Positions 47,784-53,746 of a stretch of DNA of 64,000 nucleotides are shown in pieces; positions within the stretch are counted from its first letter, which is position 1, and every line of letters begins with the position of its first letter. The stretch spans positions 1,054,001-1,118,000 of the forward strand of contig NZ_CP109496.1 in the NCBI RefSeq assembly GCF_036231355.1, in the 5' to 3' direction. A program made the position numbers and the translations under genes. Source of the stretch: Streptomyces sp. NBC_01431 (lineage in GTDB: Bacteria; Actinomycetota; Actinomycetes; Streptomycetales; Streptomycetaceae). Below the pieces are notes generated by a model. The model was not told the DNA's origin. It did not search any database and worked only from the letters and a program-made list of their open reading frames with translations.

Positions 47784-48737
47784 TTACTTGGGTGCGCCGA
47801 CGAGCTTCCCCTCGGGGGACACGGCGTACCACGTGCCGCCCATGCCCTGGCCATTGGTGTCGCCGGGCTTGGTGTCACCGGAGAAGGTGTAGACGGGCCA
47901 GCAGGTGATCGACTGCTGCTTGACTCCGTCGGGCCGGTTGAAGGTGACGAAGCCCTTCAGGGCGATGCCCTTGGTGTTGCTCTTGTCGACCGGGGCGACC
48001 GCCGGCCACTTCTGTAGACAGGCGCCGGTGCAGGCGGACTTCATGGGCCACGCCGAGTCCTTCTTGAACCGGTACACGGTCATGCCGCGCGCGTCCACGA
48101 TGACGTCGCCGAGCTTGGGGTCCTTGCGGACGGAGAGGCCTGGCATGGACTGCGCCGGGGCCTGGTCGGCGGCCGCCGCGGCCTTCTTGCCGTCGGGTGC
48201 CGCCGCGTGCCAAGTGCCGCCCACGTTCTGCCCGTTGGTGTCGCCGGGGTTGGTGTCCTTGGCGTACCGGTACATCGGCCAGCCGCCGATGGTGAGCTGC
48301 TTGGTGCCGTCGGCGCGGGTGACCGAGCCGAGCAGCGACGCATCGGCGCCCGCGGCCGCGCTGACCCCCTCGGCCGGCACGGCGGGCCAGGCCTTGGCGC
48401 AGTCGCCGGAGCAATTGGACTGCGGCGGACTCGCGGTGTCCTTGTCGAAACGGTAGAGGGTGAATCCGGCGCTGTCGGTGACGACCTTGCCGAGTTCCTT
48501 GCTGTCGGTGACGGCGAGTTGGCCGGCCTGTTTGGCCGAGGACTCGGCGCCGCCCGCCTGGCCGTAGCCGCCGCTCGACCCGTAGCCGTTGTCGGCGGGC
48601 TGCTGGGCGGCGCTGGCGTTGCCGACCGGCTGACCGGTGCCATAGCCGCTCGCCTTGTCCTGGCCGCACCCCGTCGCGGTCAGTGCCAGTACCGCTGCCG
48701 CCGCTGCCGCGAGCGATGCGCTGCGCCAGGTACCCAT
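47784..48737 (-). CDS. SCO0930-family lipoprotein with four YxFxxD-type repeats
   Basis: A 317-residue lipoprotein; the signal ends in LTATGC. A Gly/Tyr/Ser-rich linker precedes four repeats of the COG4315 kind: TLYRFDKD, MYRYAKD, TVYRFKKD and VYTFSGD. They are arranged as two double units with conserved cysteine pairs (CSGDCAKAWPAV and CTGACLQKWPAV). The function of these outward-facing proteins is unknown; a redox or metal-linked role has been suggested by their context in other genomes. The ATG has GGGAG upstream. It matches the SCO0930 family by pattern. Confidence 0.88.
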   Translation of the reverse strand: MGTWRSASLAAAAAAVLALTATGCGQDKASGYGTGQPVGNASAAQQPADNGYGSSGGYGQAGGAESSAKQAGQLAVTDSKELGKVVTDSAGFTLYRFDKDTASPPQSNCSGDCAKAWPAVPAEGVSAAAGADASLLGSVTRADGTKQLTIGGWPMYRYAKDTNPGDTNGQNVGGTWHAAAPDGKKAAAAADQAPAQSMPGLSVRKDPKLGDVIVDARGMTVYRFKKDSAWPMKSACTGACLQKWPAVAPVDKSNTKGIALKGFVTFNRPDGVKQQSITCWPVYTFSGDTKPGDTNGQGMGGTWYAVSPEGKLVGAPK

Positions 48738-48952: not shown

Positions 48953-49549
48953 ATGATCGCCTCCGTGCAAGGACGACACCTCGCCGGACGGCTGCTCGCC
49001 GCTTCGGCCTTCACCCTGCTGCTGGCCGCCCCGGCCCCGGACGCACGGGCCGACGCCTGTGCGTACGCCGTGGTCGACGGGGACGGCTGGACCTGGGCGG
49101 TCGCGGGCGCGGGCAGCCACGTGCTGTGTCCGACGCCGGAGCCCACGCCGCCCACGCCCACGCCGCCCGTGCCCACTCCACCGCCGACTCCGACGCCCCC
49201 GCGCCCGCCGGCACCGCCCCCCGCGCCGCCGCCCGCCCCGGCGCCCAAACCACCGCCGAAGCCCGCGCCCCGGCCCACGCCGCCGCGCCAAGTGCCGCCA
49301 CCGGCGCCGCTTCCCGCCGTGCACCGGCCCGCGCCGCCGCCCGCACCGCCGGTGGTTTCGCCGCCCGCGCCGTCGCCGCGTCCCGCGCCCCCGGCCGCCC
49401 GGCGGGTCGTGCTGCGCGACTACCGGACGCCGCCGCGCAAGAAGCCCGCGCCGCAGCTCTCCCCCGTCACCCTCACGCTGCTCCTCACCGCGCCCGCCGT
49501 GCTCGGCGCGGCACTGCTGCGCACCCGTTCCGGCTCCCGCTCGCGCTGA
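48953..49549 (+). CDS. Proline-rich surface protein with C-terminal membrane anchor
   Basis: A 198-residue protein. It has a signal peptide ending near DARA, a short segment with two cysteines, then about 95 residues of Pro/Thr/Ala low-complexity sequence (bases 49130-49410). A basic stretch and a C-terminal hydrophobic helix followed by Arg/Ser complete it. This is the layout of a wall-spanning stalk held at the membrane or a sorted surface protein, but no LPXTG-like motif precedes the helix. The next gene begins 24 nt later. A weak ribosome site makes the start less certain. Confidence 0.7.
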   Translation: MIASVQGRHLAGRLLAASAFTLLLAAPAPDARADACAYAVVDGDGWTWAVAGAGSHVLCPTPEPTPPTPTPPVPTPPPTPTPPRPPAPPPAPPPAPAPKPPPKPAPRPTPPRQVPPPAPLPAVHRPAPPPAPPVVSPPAPSPRPAPPAARRVVLRDYRTPPRKKPAPQLSPVTLTLLLTAPAVLGAALLRTRSGSRSR

Positions 49550-49573
49550 GCCCGATTCCTCTGAGAGGTCCCC

Positions 49574-50335
49574 GTGTCCGACTGGCTCGTCCTGGTCATC
49601 GCCATGGCTGCCGCATGCGCGGTCGTGCTCACCATCACCTTGTTCAGCAACCGGCGGCTCGCCCCGGACGACGACCCCTCCGCCACCCCGGACGTCATCG
49701 AGTACATGACGATGATGGTCGGCGTGGTGTACGCCATCGTCCTCGGCCTTGCCATCGCGGGCGTCTGGGAGGGCCGGGCGGCCGCCCAGGAGGACGTGCG
49801 GCAGGAGGCCCAGGCCCTGCACGAGATCGACCGACGGGTCCAGGTGTATCCGGCCGAGGTCCGCGACCGGACCCGGGCCGACGTCGAGGCGTACGCCTCC
49901 TACGTGGTGCACACCGAGTGGAGCTACATGGCCGAGCACGGCAACGTGGCCGCCGAGGGCGGCCGGAAGCTGGAGAAGATCCGTCGCGATGTGACCGACT
50001 ACCACCCGCAGAACGACTTCGAGGGCCAGGCCTACCAACCGCTGGTCGACCAGGTGGCCGCCGTCGACGACGCCCGCACCGCCCGCGCGCAGGGCGCGAA
50101 AGCCACCATGCCGGGGGTCGTCTGGTTCGGTCTGATCGCCGGGGCACTCGTCACGGTGGGGATGATCTTCACGCTCCAGATCAGGCGCAGCTGGCGGGAG
50201 TTGCTGCTCGCCGGGCTCTTCAGTTCCCTGATCGCCTTCCTGCTCTTCCTGATCTGGGACTTCGACGCGCCCTTCGGCCGGGGCATCTCGGCGACCGCGG
50301 GCCCGTTCATCGCGTTGCTCCCGGGCCTCGGGTGA
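49574..50335 (+). CDS. DUF4239 membrane protein
   Basis: A 253-residue protein of the DUF4239 (bestrophin-like) family. Four to five helices (about 4-25, 45-68, 180-203, 212-232, and a short C-terminal one) surround a cytoplasmic or exterior coiled domain with RRVQVYPAEVRDRTRADVEAYASYVVHTEW. Function is unknown. GTG 49574 has GAGAGG upstream. It sits within the surface-protein island and might be an ion channel or scaffold. Confidence 0.85.
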   Translation: MSDWLVLVIAMAAACAVVLTITLFSNRRLAPDDDPSATPDVIEYMTMMVGVVYAIVLGLAIAGVWEGRAAAQEDVRQEAQALHEIDRRVQVYPAEVRDRTRADVEAYASYVVHTEWSYMAEHGNVAAEGGRKLEKIRRDVTDYHPQNDFEGQAYQPLVDQVAAVDDARTARAQGAKATMPGVVWFGLIAGALVTVGMIFTLQIRRSWRELLLAGLFSSLIAFLLFLIWDFDAPFGRGISATAGPFIALLPGLG

Positions 50336-50527
50336 CAGGTGCGAGGGGTGCGGGCCCGCCCCGAGACACGGGGCGGGCTCGGCCGGGTGGGCGACGCGGA
50401 TGCCCCATTCGCCGGACCGGGATCGCGACACGCCGCGCCCACTCCTAGCGTTTCGGTCATCGAGGTGCATTTACCCCTATCTGTGGAATCGGTCCGCAGC
50501 TGCGCCTCGGGGACCGGAGGATTGACC

Positions 50528-51091
50528 ATGGGCGCGATACGCATCGCATCCGCAGCCCTGACCGGCGCTGCCGCCCTGTCGCTCGCCGCGCCCGTCGCCA
50601 TGGCGGCCGGAACCAGCACCAACGCAAGCAACACCACGTCGTTCGCCTTCAGCGTGACCCCGTCGATGAGCGCCCCCGGCGGTCAGGTCACGCTCAACGT
50701 CACGGGCTGTGCGGGCACCGCCACGGCGTCCTCCGGTGTCTTCAACACCGTCTCCATCCCTCCCGACAGTTCGAGAAACGCGACGGTCGACGTCAACGCG
50801 AAGCGCGGCGCCTCGTACACCGTGACGTTCGCGTGCGGCAGCCAGCGCGCCACCTCGCAGCTGACGATCATCGGCGGCTCGCAGCCGACCATCAGTTCCA
50901 CCCTGCGGCCTCCCTCCACTCCCACCACCACTGCCCCCACCACTCCGCTCGGGGTCCGCGGCGGCCTCGGCGGCAGCGTGGACACGGCGGGCACCTGGGA
51001 GATGGCGGCCGGTGCCGCACTGGTCGCGGCGGCCGGCGGCGGCGCCCTGTTCTATCTGCGCCGGCGGGTAGCCCGGCGGCAGCGCTGGTGA
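50528..51091 (+). CDS. Cell-surface protein with C-terminal anchor, paralogue A
   Basis: A 187-residue protein. A signal peptide (cleavage near PVAMA) precedes an Ig-like beta domain (about 38-115) with a conserved Cys pair (VTGCAG, FACGSQ). A Pro/Thr linker follows, then the segment GVRGGLGGSV before a C-terminal helix and a RRR-V-ARRQ tail. That is a sortase-substrate layout (signal, domain, linker, motif, helix, positive tail), but without LPXTG or LAXTG. The minus-strand gene at 51184 has the same layout and GGLGG motif. The ribosome site GGAGG supports the start. Confidence 0.78.
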   Translation: MGAIRIASAALTGAAALSLAAPVAMAAGTSTNASNTTSFAFSVTPSMSAPGGQVTLNVTGCAGTATASSGVFNTVSIPPDSSRNATVDVNAKRGASYTVTFACGSQRATSQLTIIGGSQPTISSTLRPPSTPTTTAPTTPLGVRGGLGGSVDTAGTWEMAAGAALVAAAGGGALFYLRRRVARRQRW

Positions 51092-51117
51092 CCACCGTGG
51101 CGGCCACACGCCCGTCA

Positions 51118-51145
51118 CCCCCGAGTCCTGGCCGGGACTCGGGGG
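51118..51145. terminator. Hairpin terminator between the convergent paralogues
   Basis: CCCCCGAGTCC (51118-51128) pairs perfectly with GGACTCGGGGG (51135-51145) over a 6-nt loop, midway between the two stops. Confidence 0.85.
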
Positions 51146-51183
51146 CGACGGGCCGCCTGGGCCGTTCCGGGAGGTTCGTCCGG

Positions 51184-51675
51184 TCAGACCCGTACGACTG
51201 CGCGCCGGCGGCGGGCGACGAACACCGCACCGCCGATCGCGGCGGCGGCGACCAGGCTGCCGCCGACCGTCATCTCGGTGTCGGTGGGGCCGGCAGCGCC
51301 GCCGAGCCCGCCGTCGGCGCCGCGGCCTTCGAGGACCCTGAAGCTGCGGGTCGCCACCCGGTCGTTGTCGTTGCACTTGACCGCCAGGTTGTAGTTTCCC
51401 GGAGTCGTGTGGTCGTGGATCCTCGCCGTCGCGAAGTTGATGTCGCCCGCCGAGAGATGGACCTCGTCGAAGGCGTTCGACGTGACTCTGCCGCCCTGGC
51501 TGCAGCCCCTCGCGCTGATTCTCAGCGTGGCGCCCTGGTGGACCGAGGAGGGGTCGACATCGACGTTGGTCGGGCCGCCGCCGTTGGGCGGGCCCCCTGC
51601 GGCGGCCATGGGGGCGGCGAGCCCGACCGCGGCGCCGACGGCCAGCGCCACCGTAAGAGCGCGTGAAGCACGCAT
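51184..51675 (-). CDS. Cell-surface protein with C-terminal anchor, paralogue B
   Basis: A 163-residue paralogue of the gene at 50528, on the opposite strand and convergent with it. It has a signal peptide (near APMAAA), an Ig-like domain with the same spaced cysteines (SARGCSQGG, VKCNDND), a GADGGLGGAAG segment, a C-terminal helix and a terminal RRRR-containing tail. The two are diverged but alike in length, layout and Gly motif. GGAGG eight bases before the ATG fixes the start. A class F sortase gene lies divergent to it. Confidence 0.78.
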   Translation of the reverse strand: MRASRALTVALAVGAAVGLAAPMAAAGGPPNGGGPTNVDVDPSSVHQGATLRISARGCSQGGRVTSNAFDEVHLSAGDINFATARIHDHTTPGNYNLAVKCNDNDRVATRSFRVLEGRGADGGLGGAAGPTDTEMTVGGSLVAAAAIGGAVFVARRRRAVVRV

Positions 51676-52006
51676 CGTTGAACCTCCATGGGAGGACGCC
51701 CCGAAGCCGTGCTCCGGGATGATCGACGAGTACGCCTCCCATGACGAACCCTCACTGCCGCTCATACAAGCCGCATTTCGGCACTGATCCACCCTGGTGA
51801 ACCGGACCGTCCCCGTACGGCCCCCGAATCTGACGGACCCGCAGGTCACAGACCGTCAGATCAGTTTTGCCGCCGCGTTACCCGGATGGGTCAGGCCCGG
51901 TGGCCCACCACCCGTTCGCCACTGTCCGATCGCCGAGCGGGCACCGCGCCCTTACGGTGCTCGAAGGCGCGCTGAGGGTGGACGGCGAAGGAGATGACGA
52001 AGAGAC
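51676..52006. other. Divergent promoter region of paralogue B and sortase
   Basis: About 330 bases without a gene, separating the divergent starts. TCTGACGG and CCGTCAGA (51831-51838, 51868-51875) form an inverted pair that could bind a regulator of both genes. The rest is unremarkable. Confidence 0.4.
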
Positions 52007-52663
52007 ATGGCGCAGGAAGAGAGTGGCGTGGAGCGGCGCAGACGCTCCCCGTGGGGGGCCCTGGCCCTGGTGATGCTCACCGGCCTCGCGCTGATGCGCA
52101 ACGGTGCGGACGTGACGATGGGCCCGCCGCAGCCGGCCTCCGCGGCAGCGCTGACCAGCCATGCGGAGACCGTCTCCGCGCCGTCGGCCGCTCCGGTCGA
52201 GCCGCTGCCCTTCGCGCCCGCCTCGCGGATCCGGATCGGTGAGATCAAGGTGGACGCGCCGATCATGGACGTGGGCACCGACCCCCAGGGCTGGGTGCAG
52301 GCTCCCCCGCCGCAGGACCCGAACCTGGCGGGCTGGTACCAGAACGGCGTCGCCCCCGGCATGCGCGGCACCTCCGTGATCGTCGGCCACGTCGACAACC
52401 ACACGGGTCCCGCGGTCTTCTACGGGCTCGGCTCGCTCCAGAAGGGCAGCCACATCGAGGTCGCGCGCTTCGACGGCCGCACCGCGGTGTTCGAGGTGTA
52501 CGGCGTCGAGGTCTTCGACAAGGCCACCTTCCCCGGCACCCGGGTGTACGGCGACACCGGGCAGCCGGAGCTCCGGGTGATCACCTGCGGCGGCGGCTTC
52601 TCCAGGTCCCGGGGGTACGAGGGGAACGTCGTGGCCTTCGCCCGCCTCGTCGCCACGCAGTAG
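52007..52663 (+). CDS. Class F sortase
   Basis: A 218-residue sortase. The single N-terminal membrane helix (about 14-31) and a short Pro/Ala stalk precede the sortase barrel from about 74 (RIRIGEIKVDAPIMDVG). The catalytic triad is intact: His128 (VIVGHVDN), Cys194 (VITCGGGF) and Arg202 (SRGYEGN). Class F enzymes are typical of actinobacteria and link exported proteins to peptidoglycan; their substrates are poorly defined. The two GGLGG paralogues next door are natural candidates. The 3' end converges on a polysaccharide deacetylase with 33 nt between. Confidence 0.92.
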   Translation: MAQEESGVERRRRSPWGALALVMLTGLALMRNGADVTMGPPQPASAAALTSHAETVSAPSAAPVEPLPFAPASRIRIGEIKVDAPIMDVGTDPQGWVQAPPPQDPNLAGWYQNGVAPGMRGTSVIVGHVDNHTGPAVFYGLGSLQKGSHIEVARFDGRTAVFEVYGVEVFDKATFPGTRVYGDTGQPELRVITCGGGFSRSRGYEGNVVAFARLVATQ

Positions 52664-52696: not shown

Positions 52697-53545
52697 TCAT
52701 CTGCGTCGCGGCGGCACCTTCAACTCGTATCCCTCGGACAGGAGTTGGGGCAGGTAGGTACGCAGGGCCGCGACGCTCTGCGAACGGTCGCCGCCCGCGT
52801 CGTGGGAGAGCACCACGACGCCGGGCGCGGCCCCGTCCAGCACCCGGCGGATGATGGTGGGGGTGCCGGGCGTGGTCCAGTCAAGGGAGTCGACGGTCCA
52901 GGCGAGCGGCTCCATGCCCATCTCGGCCTCGATCTCGAACACGTTGCGGTTCCAGGCTCCGTAGGGCGCCCGGAACCACTGCGGCGGCTCGCCGATGACC
53001 TGCTCGATGACCTCGCTGGTGCGTCCGATCTCGGAGCGGATCACGGCGGGGGCCGTCTTGTTGAGCTGCGGGTGGGTCCAGGTGTGGTTGCCGATGACGT
53101 GGCCGTCGTCCTGCATCTCGCGCAGCAGGTCGCGGTTGTCGGTGGCCATCTCGCCGCAGAGGAAGAACACCGCGCGCACGTCGTGCTCGCGCAGCGTCTT
53201 CAGGATGCCCGGGGTGTAGCGCGGGTCGGGCCCGTCGTCGAAGGTGAGCACCATCGAGCGAGGGCCCAGCTGGGGCATGCTCAGGAAGGGTCTGCGCCGC
53301 ACGGGTGGCAGCGCGGTGTGATAGCGGGGCGGGGTGTAGGCGGTCATGGGTTCCAGGCGGTACGCGCTCGGCCGCAGCCGGGACGCGGGGGCGCCGGGCC
53401 CCGCCGCGGCAGGGCCGGCGGCCGGTGCGGCCGCGCGGCGGGGAGCCTGGGGGGCGACCGTGTCCTCGGCGGTCAGCATCCGGGCCGCGGCCGCGGCTCC
53501 GATGCAGGCGGCGACGCGCAACACCGTCCGCCGACTGGGGAGCAT
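52697..53545 (-). CDS. Exported polysaccharide deacetylase (NodB fold)
   Basis: A 282-residue enzyme. The N-terminus SRRTVLRVAAC followed by an Ala-rich stretch resembles a Tat signal. NodB motifs follow: VLTFDDGPDPRYTP (metal Asp), GNHTWTHPQL (two histidines), RAPYGAWN and VVLSHDAGG. It removes acetyl groups from N-acetylated polymers such as peptidoglycan, chitin or the putative galactosaminan. ATG 53545 has AAGGG six bases away and is preferred over ATG 53560. It stands in the surface island beside the sortase and LysX. Confidence 0.9.
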   Translation of the reverse strand: MLPSRRTVLRVAACIGAAAAARMLTAEDTVAPQAPRRAAAPAAGPAAAGPGAPASRLRPSAYRLEPMTAYTPPRYHTALPPVRRRPFLSMPQLGPRSMVLTFDDGPDPRYTPGILKTLREHDVRAVFFLCGEMATDNRDLLREMQDDGHVIGNHTWTHPQLNKTAPAVIRSEIGRTSEVIEQVIGEPPQWFRAPYGAWNRNVFEIEAEMGMEPLAWTVDSLDWTTPGTPTIIRRVLDGAAPGVVVLSHDAGGDRSQSVAALRTYLPQLLSEGYELKVPPRRR

Positions 53546-53746
53546 CTGATCCCTTTTCATGACATGCGGCTTTTGTTCGTCATGTCGGCAGATTAGGGCG
53601 CCGGGGTCGTCGCGGGGGCGGCGAAACGTCAGCACCCGCCTGACACCAGCACGAATGGAGTCACCGGCCGGGCGGGGCTCACAGGGACGGGCCGACACCG
53701 GCGGGCGGCGCCAAGGGGGGCGGGGCGGACATCCGGCGGGCGGGGC

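Follow-up and report, generated by a model that had tools for sequence, protein, structure and literature searches.

Described class F sortase systems

The locus described here lies at positions 48,953 to 52,663 of a 64,000-nucleotide stretch of the Streptomyces sp. NBC_01431 chromosome (contig NZ_CP109496.1, positions 1,054,001 to 1,118,000 of the forward strand; genome size 8.98 Mb), referred to below as the window, and is composed of a class F sortase gene and the genes of two small, apparently secreted proteins. The closest described systems come from other actinobacteria, and two of them can be likened to the locus by description only. The class F sortase of Cutibacterium acnes shares the class name and the transpeptidation expected of the window enzyme, and differs in that the available text of its reports describes LPXTG-type peptides (PMC7451113, PMC13257024). 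In Actinoplanes missouriensis, class F genes adjoin proteins with a signal peptide, a transmembrane (TM) segment and a basic tail that have no known pentapeptide; the authors name AMIS_11010 (beside srtF1) and AMIS_36440 (beside srtF4) as possible substrates of SrtF1 and SrtF4, and the accessible portion of the paper gives no motif for them (PMC13251363). The class E sortases of Streptomyces and their LAXTG proteins (chaplins) are alike in the order of pentapeptide, helix and basic tail and in cell-surface display, whereas their motif, LAXTG, is different (PMC5148588, available sections). Regarding Streptomyces coelicolor, the sections available of two papers count five (PMC5148588) and two (PMC6998099, Table 5) class F enzymes.

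Among family models, NCBIfam (June 2026) holds NF058571, a "GVDTG sorting domain" (GVDTG_CTERM). A literature search, with most subscription journals outside its coverage, found no paper naming the signal described below for class F sortases or linking NF058571 to them; searching on GVDTG returned nothing relevant, and combining sortase, NCBIfam and CTERM returned nothing on class F by title.

Sequence comparisons identify the locus as a real and well-conserved sortase-substrate module, and the main idea of a preliminary description of this DNA, that a class F sortase stands beside two non-LPXTG candidate substrates, appears to be right in kind. Very probably it is a dedicated wall-anchoring module, in which the class F sortase serves two paralogous secreted substrates through a degenerate signal of the GVxTG type.

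The sortase and its candidate substrates

The two candidate substrates are encoded by convergent open reading frames (ORFs), P0001 (187 amino acids, positions 50528 to 51091, forward strand) and P0002 (163 amino acids, 51184 to 51675, reverse strand). P0001 has, in order, a signal-peptide-like start, a domain with Cys61 and Cys103, a Thr/Pro linker, the putative sorting motif GVRGGLGG (residues 142-149; 50951 to 50974, forward strand), a hydrophobic helix and an arginine tail, with GGLGG at residues 145-149. P0002 has Cys58 and Cys101, the motif GADGGLGG (residues 119-126; 51298 to 51321, reverse strand) with GGLGG at residues 122-126, and likewise a hydrophobic segment and arginine tail at its end. 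The signal peptides were called only from inspection of the sequence and a hydrophobicity rule. A pattern search for L[PA]xTG (LPXTG or LAXTG) was negative in both sequences; in this, and in the coordinates, Cys pairs, GGLGG segments, hydrophobic ends and arginine tails, the preliminary description was accurate. It is this order of parts, from a putative export signal through a domain, a poorly structured linker with the motif and a hydrophobic segment to a basic tail, that suggests a pair of sortase substrates.

The same description called the two proteins paralogous. BLASTP gives no match between them, although their family profiles can be aligned across 165 columns, Cys pair included, with a probability of 99.8% (hhalign); by profile comparison they are genuine paralogues, at a distance that needs profiles to see. 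The predicted structure of P0002 has a confident beta sandwich (residues 36-118); the linker that contains the motif was modelled at very low confidence, and a helix (residues 139-157) at low confidence. Searching the PDB for this fold returned nothing that passes E 0.001; the best match has E 1.1e-3, and glycosidase accessory domains are mixed with immunoglobulin (Ig)-type domains among the best matches. The label "Ig-like" given earlier to the domain is therefore plausible from the model and not secure, and what the module displays is possibly an Ig-like ectodomain.

The sortase, P0003 (218 amino acids, 52007 to 52663, forward strand), matches the class F model NF033748 with 206.9 bits over a cut-off of 166 (207.5 in the search of the whole genome), in agreement with its earlier naming. 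When 196 distinct class F rows are aligned, the conserved columns include His128 (194/194), Cys194 (195/195), Asn207 (194/195) and Arg190 (193/195). The enzyme had been called intact on the strength of His128, Cys194 and Arg202. The first two residues hold, but position 202 is Arg in just 9 of 187 class F rows, which rules it out as the catalytic or conserved third residue; Asn207 is conserved instead. According to the available text of PMC6998099, class F enzymes of actinobacteria have Asn in place of the Arg, and we infer that this Asn corresponds to Asn207. By its sequence P0003 is an intact class F enzyme, but Arg202 is not the reason. Its structure model (mean predicted local distance difference test score 88) has an N-terminal helix at residues 15-33, the expected membrane segment, and a sortase fold that matches PDB sortases from E 2.0e-9. 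A phmmer search of the PDB with P0003 gave no matches, and profile A6 found three distant sortases there.

Linkage of the two families to the sortase

An orthologous sortase is present in 113 of 150 Streptomyces genomes. Among the matches listed, a scope that holds for all linkage and co-occurrence counts in this and the following section, 109 of 110 strong matches to the P0002 family and 88 of 102 to the P0001 family lie within 4.5 kb of it, strong matches being the rows down to E 3.3e-30 (profile A3) and 1.8e-42 (profile A2). Paralogues widespread without the sortase, which the preliminary description had named as evidence against itself, were therefore not found. Of the 14 other P0001-family matches, six have a different class F sortase 0.7-0.9 kb away (start to start). 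Three rows that represent second fragments in genomes included once already were omitted from these counts; one of them (G030:C35) is on a contig without the sortase. G148 was scored as having no P0002-family member, and has a match just under the cut and within 1.6 kb of the sortase. The sole P0002 exception is genome G140 (locus L308, C1:1620500-1630500), where the sortase gene is in place with its reading frame interrupted. Both families stand beside the interrupted gene in L308, which may be a real loss or an assembly error.

A glycine-rich signal beside class F sortases

The source genome has ten Pfam sortase matches, of which five are class F over the cut-off. Each of these five adjoins a protein with a C-terminal TM helix and arginine tail (TM-Arg protein) and a glycine-rich segment before the helix: HVKTGVGGS, GVAAGGGG, VHAGGGG, GAVAAGAE and, in the window, GVRGGLGGS and GADGGLGGA. 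A sixth class F sortase, apparently truncated (G000:C1:2770681-2770971; L046 3745-3987; 97 bits, cut-off 166, profile positions 56-154), has no motif-bearing neighbour.

A similar segment was found in most of 80 named loci (78 titled Streptomyces, one Actinacidiphila and one Streptomycetaceae), 40 further Streptomyces loci chosen from 93 class F sortases without a match to a narrow C-terminal profile (A4), and 20 loci from outside the genus, hand-picked for variety. Unbiased expectation maximization on 154 non-redundant pre-TM segments returned the motif P-x-G-[GHSA]-[VAMP]-x-[TAG]-G-x-G; the log-likelihood rose by 997, compared with 149 when the segments were shuffled. An ORF bearing the motif, a C-terminal TM helix and a basic tail lies within 1.5 kb of 176 of 188 distinct class F sortases when no further filters are applied (157/168 in the first sets and 19/20 in the sample from outside the genus); requiring a signal-like start and suitable codon usage leaves 165 (149/168 and 16/20). 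Only sortases more than 97% alike were merged, so the 188 include those of related species, and of the 11 that lose their neighbour once the filters are applied, one (L289) may have a chance ORF. TM-Arg ORFs more than 2 kb from a sortase had a positive motif score in 0 of 36 cases. Trained on Streptomyces loci only, a matrix recognizes 14 of the 21 neighbour segments from outside the genus, compared with 2.4% of shuffles. On the objection, raised in the preliminary description, that LPXTG proteins elsewhere may be the true substrates, the pattern L[PA]x[TS][GAS] is present in 4 of the 128 neighbours, no excess over the shuffle mean of 4.7. In the sample from outside the genus, the candidate substrates of L294-L297 are on the strand opposite the sortase, and L288 has two sortases; L303 has two candidate substrates, as in the window.

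Profile A4 gives the same picture at the scale of whole genomes. Neighbourhoods of 3 kb around class F sortases cover about 0.44% of the genomes and hold 75 of all 116 A4 matches, and of the 64 matches scoring 40 bits or more, 56 are no further than 3 kb from such a sortase. Two strong signal matches in another genome, G012:C1:8974424 (55.7 bits) and G012:C1:8308312 (55.1 bits), are far from listed class F sortases and are candidate distant substrates. Across 197 genomes of the class, 70 have both signal and sortase, seven the signal only, 32 the sortase only and 88 neither, with at most 35 candidates scored per genome. The motif and its tie to class F sortases exceed chance.

Regarding the families of the window, the GxGG glycines are invariant in 12 P0001-family and 11 P0002-family sequences, and divergent P0001-family members have Ala as the fourth residue (GVKAG in L059 and L060, GVHAG in L308). 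GGLGG, suggested earlier as the recognition motif, is by these alignments the second half of a longer signal, PxG-[GHSA]-[VAMP]-x-[TAG]-G-x-GG, and was rejected as a motif by itself; the suggestion keeps its value in that GxGG is conserved in both families and beside other class F sortases. The pentapeptide of the window proteins would then be GVRGG in P0001 and GADGG in P0002. A downstream T-x-E region, seen in P0002 and in the protein of L042, varies across the aligned sequences and was also rejected. The comparison of neighbouring C-termini across Streptomyces that the preliminary description had proposed has thus given a conserved GxGG and a class-wide motif, and by sequence the glycine-rich signal is general to class F neighbours, not private to this island. 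The proposal of a new sorting system is supported as far as a widespread class F-linked signal goes, but the signal is not special to the island and NF058571 already models a related domain. Sixty of 62 class F-adjacent C-termini match NF058571 at E<=0.01, sharing its layout and motif region, and the two places of the source genome over its cut-off both adjoin class F sortases. PF00746, in comparison, matches four of the 62 at the same threshold, and searching of the PF00746 type would miss most such proteins.

The signal in the window proteins

A longer profile draws on 62 of 105 candidate C-termini (set A5; the omitted rows include two that resemble antisense artefacts). Built from 53 of the 62, with the loci orthologous to that of the window left out, it gives P0001 33.8 bits and P0002 28.5 bits, and scores at least 20 bits in 61 of 67 orthologue substrates, compared with 94 of 335 sequences shuffled before the TM helix and none of 36 far ORFs (maximum 9.6). 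This training set retained a few loci with 54-58% identical sortases. Dropping seven more loci (48 rows) still gives 31.1 bits for P0001 and 25.0 for P0002, with 61/67 orthologue substrates, 74/335 shuffles and 0/36 far ORFs (maximum 8.9) at or above 20 bits.

Several observations weigh against the pair being class F substrates of the general kind, or against the generality of the signal itself. Part of the profile score is due to the helix and tail, as the 94 of 335 shuffles that keep 20 bits indicate. A matrix of 10 residues whose training excluded the window's group misses both P0001 (-3.1) and P0002 (-9.6) and finds 10 of 64 orthologue segments. With NF058571 the two proteins are outliers, at 16.2 and 19.6 bits below the curated cut-off of 29, and their putative acyl-donor residue is Gly, not Thr. 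The matrix behind the 154-segment motif and the counts of 176 and 165 of 188 was trained on these very neighbours, and a motif-bearing neighbour within 1.5 kb is missing for 12 of the 188 sortases, or 23 with the stricter filters. A4 matches accompany 57 of 150 listed class F sortases, 8 of its 64 strong matches lie more than 3 kb from every listed class F sortase, and 32 of the 102 genomes with a class F sortase have no signal match; these last may be due partly to the limit of 35 scored candidates and partly to other signals. From the literature, the C. acnes enzyme takes LPXTG-type peptides such as LPQTGE (PMC7451113, PMC13257024, available text), and deletion of all four class F genes of A. 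missouriensis has no phenotype reported in the accessible portion of PMC13251363.

Recognition by the longer profile and failure of the short matrix together suggest that the window pair carries a divergent version of the signal. Compared with NF058571, the pair falls under the cut-off and has GVRGG and GADGG, without the Thr of GVDTG; the two proteins are not filed as members of that family, but resemble it and probably work alike.

Proposed mechanism and alternatives

In the mechanism that we favour, the Sec pathway would export P0001 and P0002, and the C-terminal helix and arginine tail would keep them in the membrane. The membrane-bound P0003 would then attack, through Cys194, a pre-membrane signal G-[VA]-x-[GA]-G-x-GG, which may be a degenerate form of an actinomycete class F consensus, P-x-G-G-V-x-[TAG]-G-x-GG. 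When the motif is aligned to LPXTG it reads G-V-x-[TAG]-G, with xGG after it, and from this we infer cleavage after the fourth residue; the cut would most likely fall between residues 4 and 5 of the pentapeptide (GVRG↓G in P0001, GADG↓G in P0002). Acyl transfer to Cys194 would follow, and the freed ectodomain would be joined to a peptidoglycan precursor, making the wall the presumed acceptor. That the pair are substrates came through both checks that could be run, conservation of the motif and linkage to the sortase, which are checks on sequence.

The best surviving alternative, already raised in the preliminary description and in our judgement unlikely, is that P0001 and P0002 are membrane-held partners that retain their helix and either help or control the sortase, or join it in acting on a further substrate, with the glycine run as a flexible linker. 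The absence of LPXTG and the Gly at the putative scissile position agree with this, as do the very low model confidence of the linker, expected of a disordered stretch, and the fact that both paralogues commonly flank one sortase. However, the segment keeps position-specific residues and loses profile score on shuffling, unlike a plain linker, and the signal is found beside other class F sortases on proteins whose ectodomains are dissimilar by eye. It also occurs on proteins far from class F sortases, as is the case with sortase substrates. Two such proteins of the source genome, in L018 (G000:C1:4183669) and L013 (G000:C2:400751), have a PKG[AG]VAAGAE version of the signal, with none of the genome's class F sortases nearby, and C-termini that resemble the protein beside the class F sortase at C1:3176585.

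It is much less probable that the proteins are substrates of another sortase of the genome, of the class E type, with the class F adjacency incidental. The genome does have ten Pfam sortase matches, five of them class F over the cut-off, and the C-terminal half of P0001 weakly matches the LAETG model (19 bits, cut-off 30), but the pair has no LAXTG, the genome's three LAxTG proteins among the sorting-domain matches score below zero on the class F motif, and the link to class F is seen in 109 of the 110 P0002-family matches listed. Glycine-rich or short pre-TM signals are cut in other systems by rhomboid or other intramembrane proteases, as for GlyGly-CTERM and reportedly MYXO-CTERM (PMC11980579), and one A5 member each weakly matches MprA_tail and MYXO-CTERM; that such a protease cuts the signal here, the class F sortase being a mere neighbour, is nevertheless very improbable, as throughout the class the signal lies near class F sortases and co-occurs with them.

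Taking the anchoring module as the preferred reading, we lean towards a broader proposal for the actinomycetes: that class F sortases there form dedicated enzyme-substrate pairs without LPXTG, in which His-Cys-Asn enzymes read private versions of a shared signal. The window pair would be an extreme of this kind, in which the threonine has been lost and the acyl intermediate would form on glycine.

Other features of the locus

A strong, perfect hairpin (51118 to 51145) lies between the convergent stop codons of P0001 and P0002. Described earlier as a terminator, it is likely a bidirectional one, but it has no T-run and was not called by a scan for T-tail terminators. Two upstream proteins had been proposed as possible members of the system, and neither was retained. 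The DUF4239 protein is bestrophin-like (PF14023, 201.8 bits) and its gene is syntenic in 13 of 14 orthologous loci; homologues are present in 107 of 113 genomes with the orthologous sortase and also in 32 of 37 without it, which led to its rejection. The proline-rich protein was rejected as it is without the motif (score -12.3). A lipoprotein-like protein with an internal repeat (47784 to 48737) and a polysaccharide deacetylase-like protein (52697 to 53698), both identified by eye, border the island on its two sides, and proteins of both kinds are also present in loci L308 and L310.

Implications

The value of these results is less in the island itself than in the general class F signal to which it led. 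With a defined signal, most of the class F sortases examined have a candidate substrate next door, which opens the way to direct knock-out and peptide assays. The signal may also yield new orthogonal sortase tags for protein ligation. Class F sortases are presumed to attach proteins to the wall of the cell, and the job of the actinomycete enzymes can now be tested.

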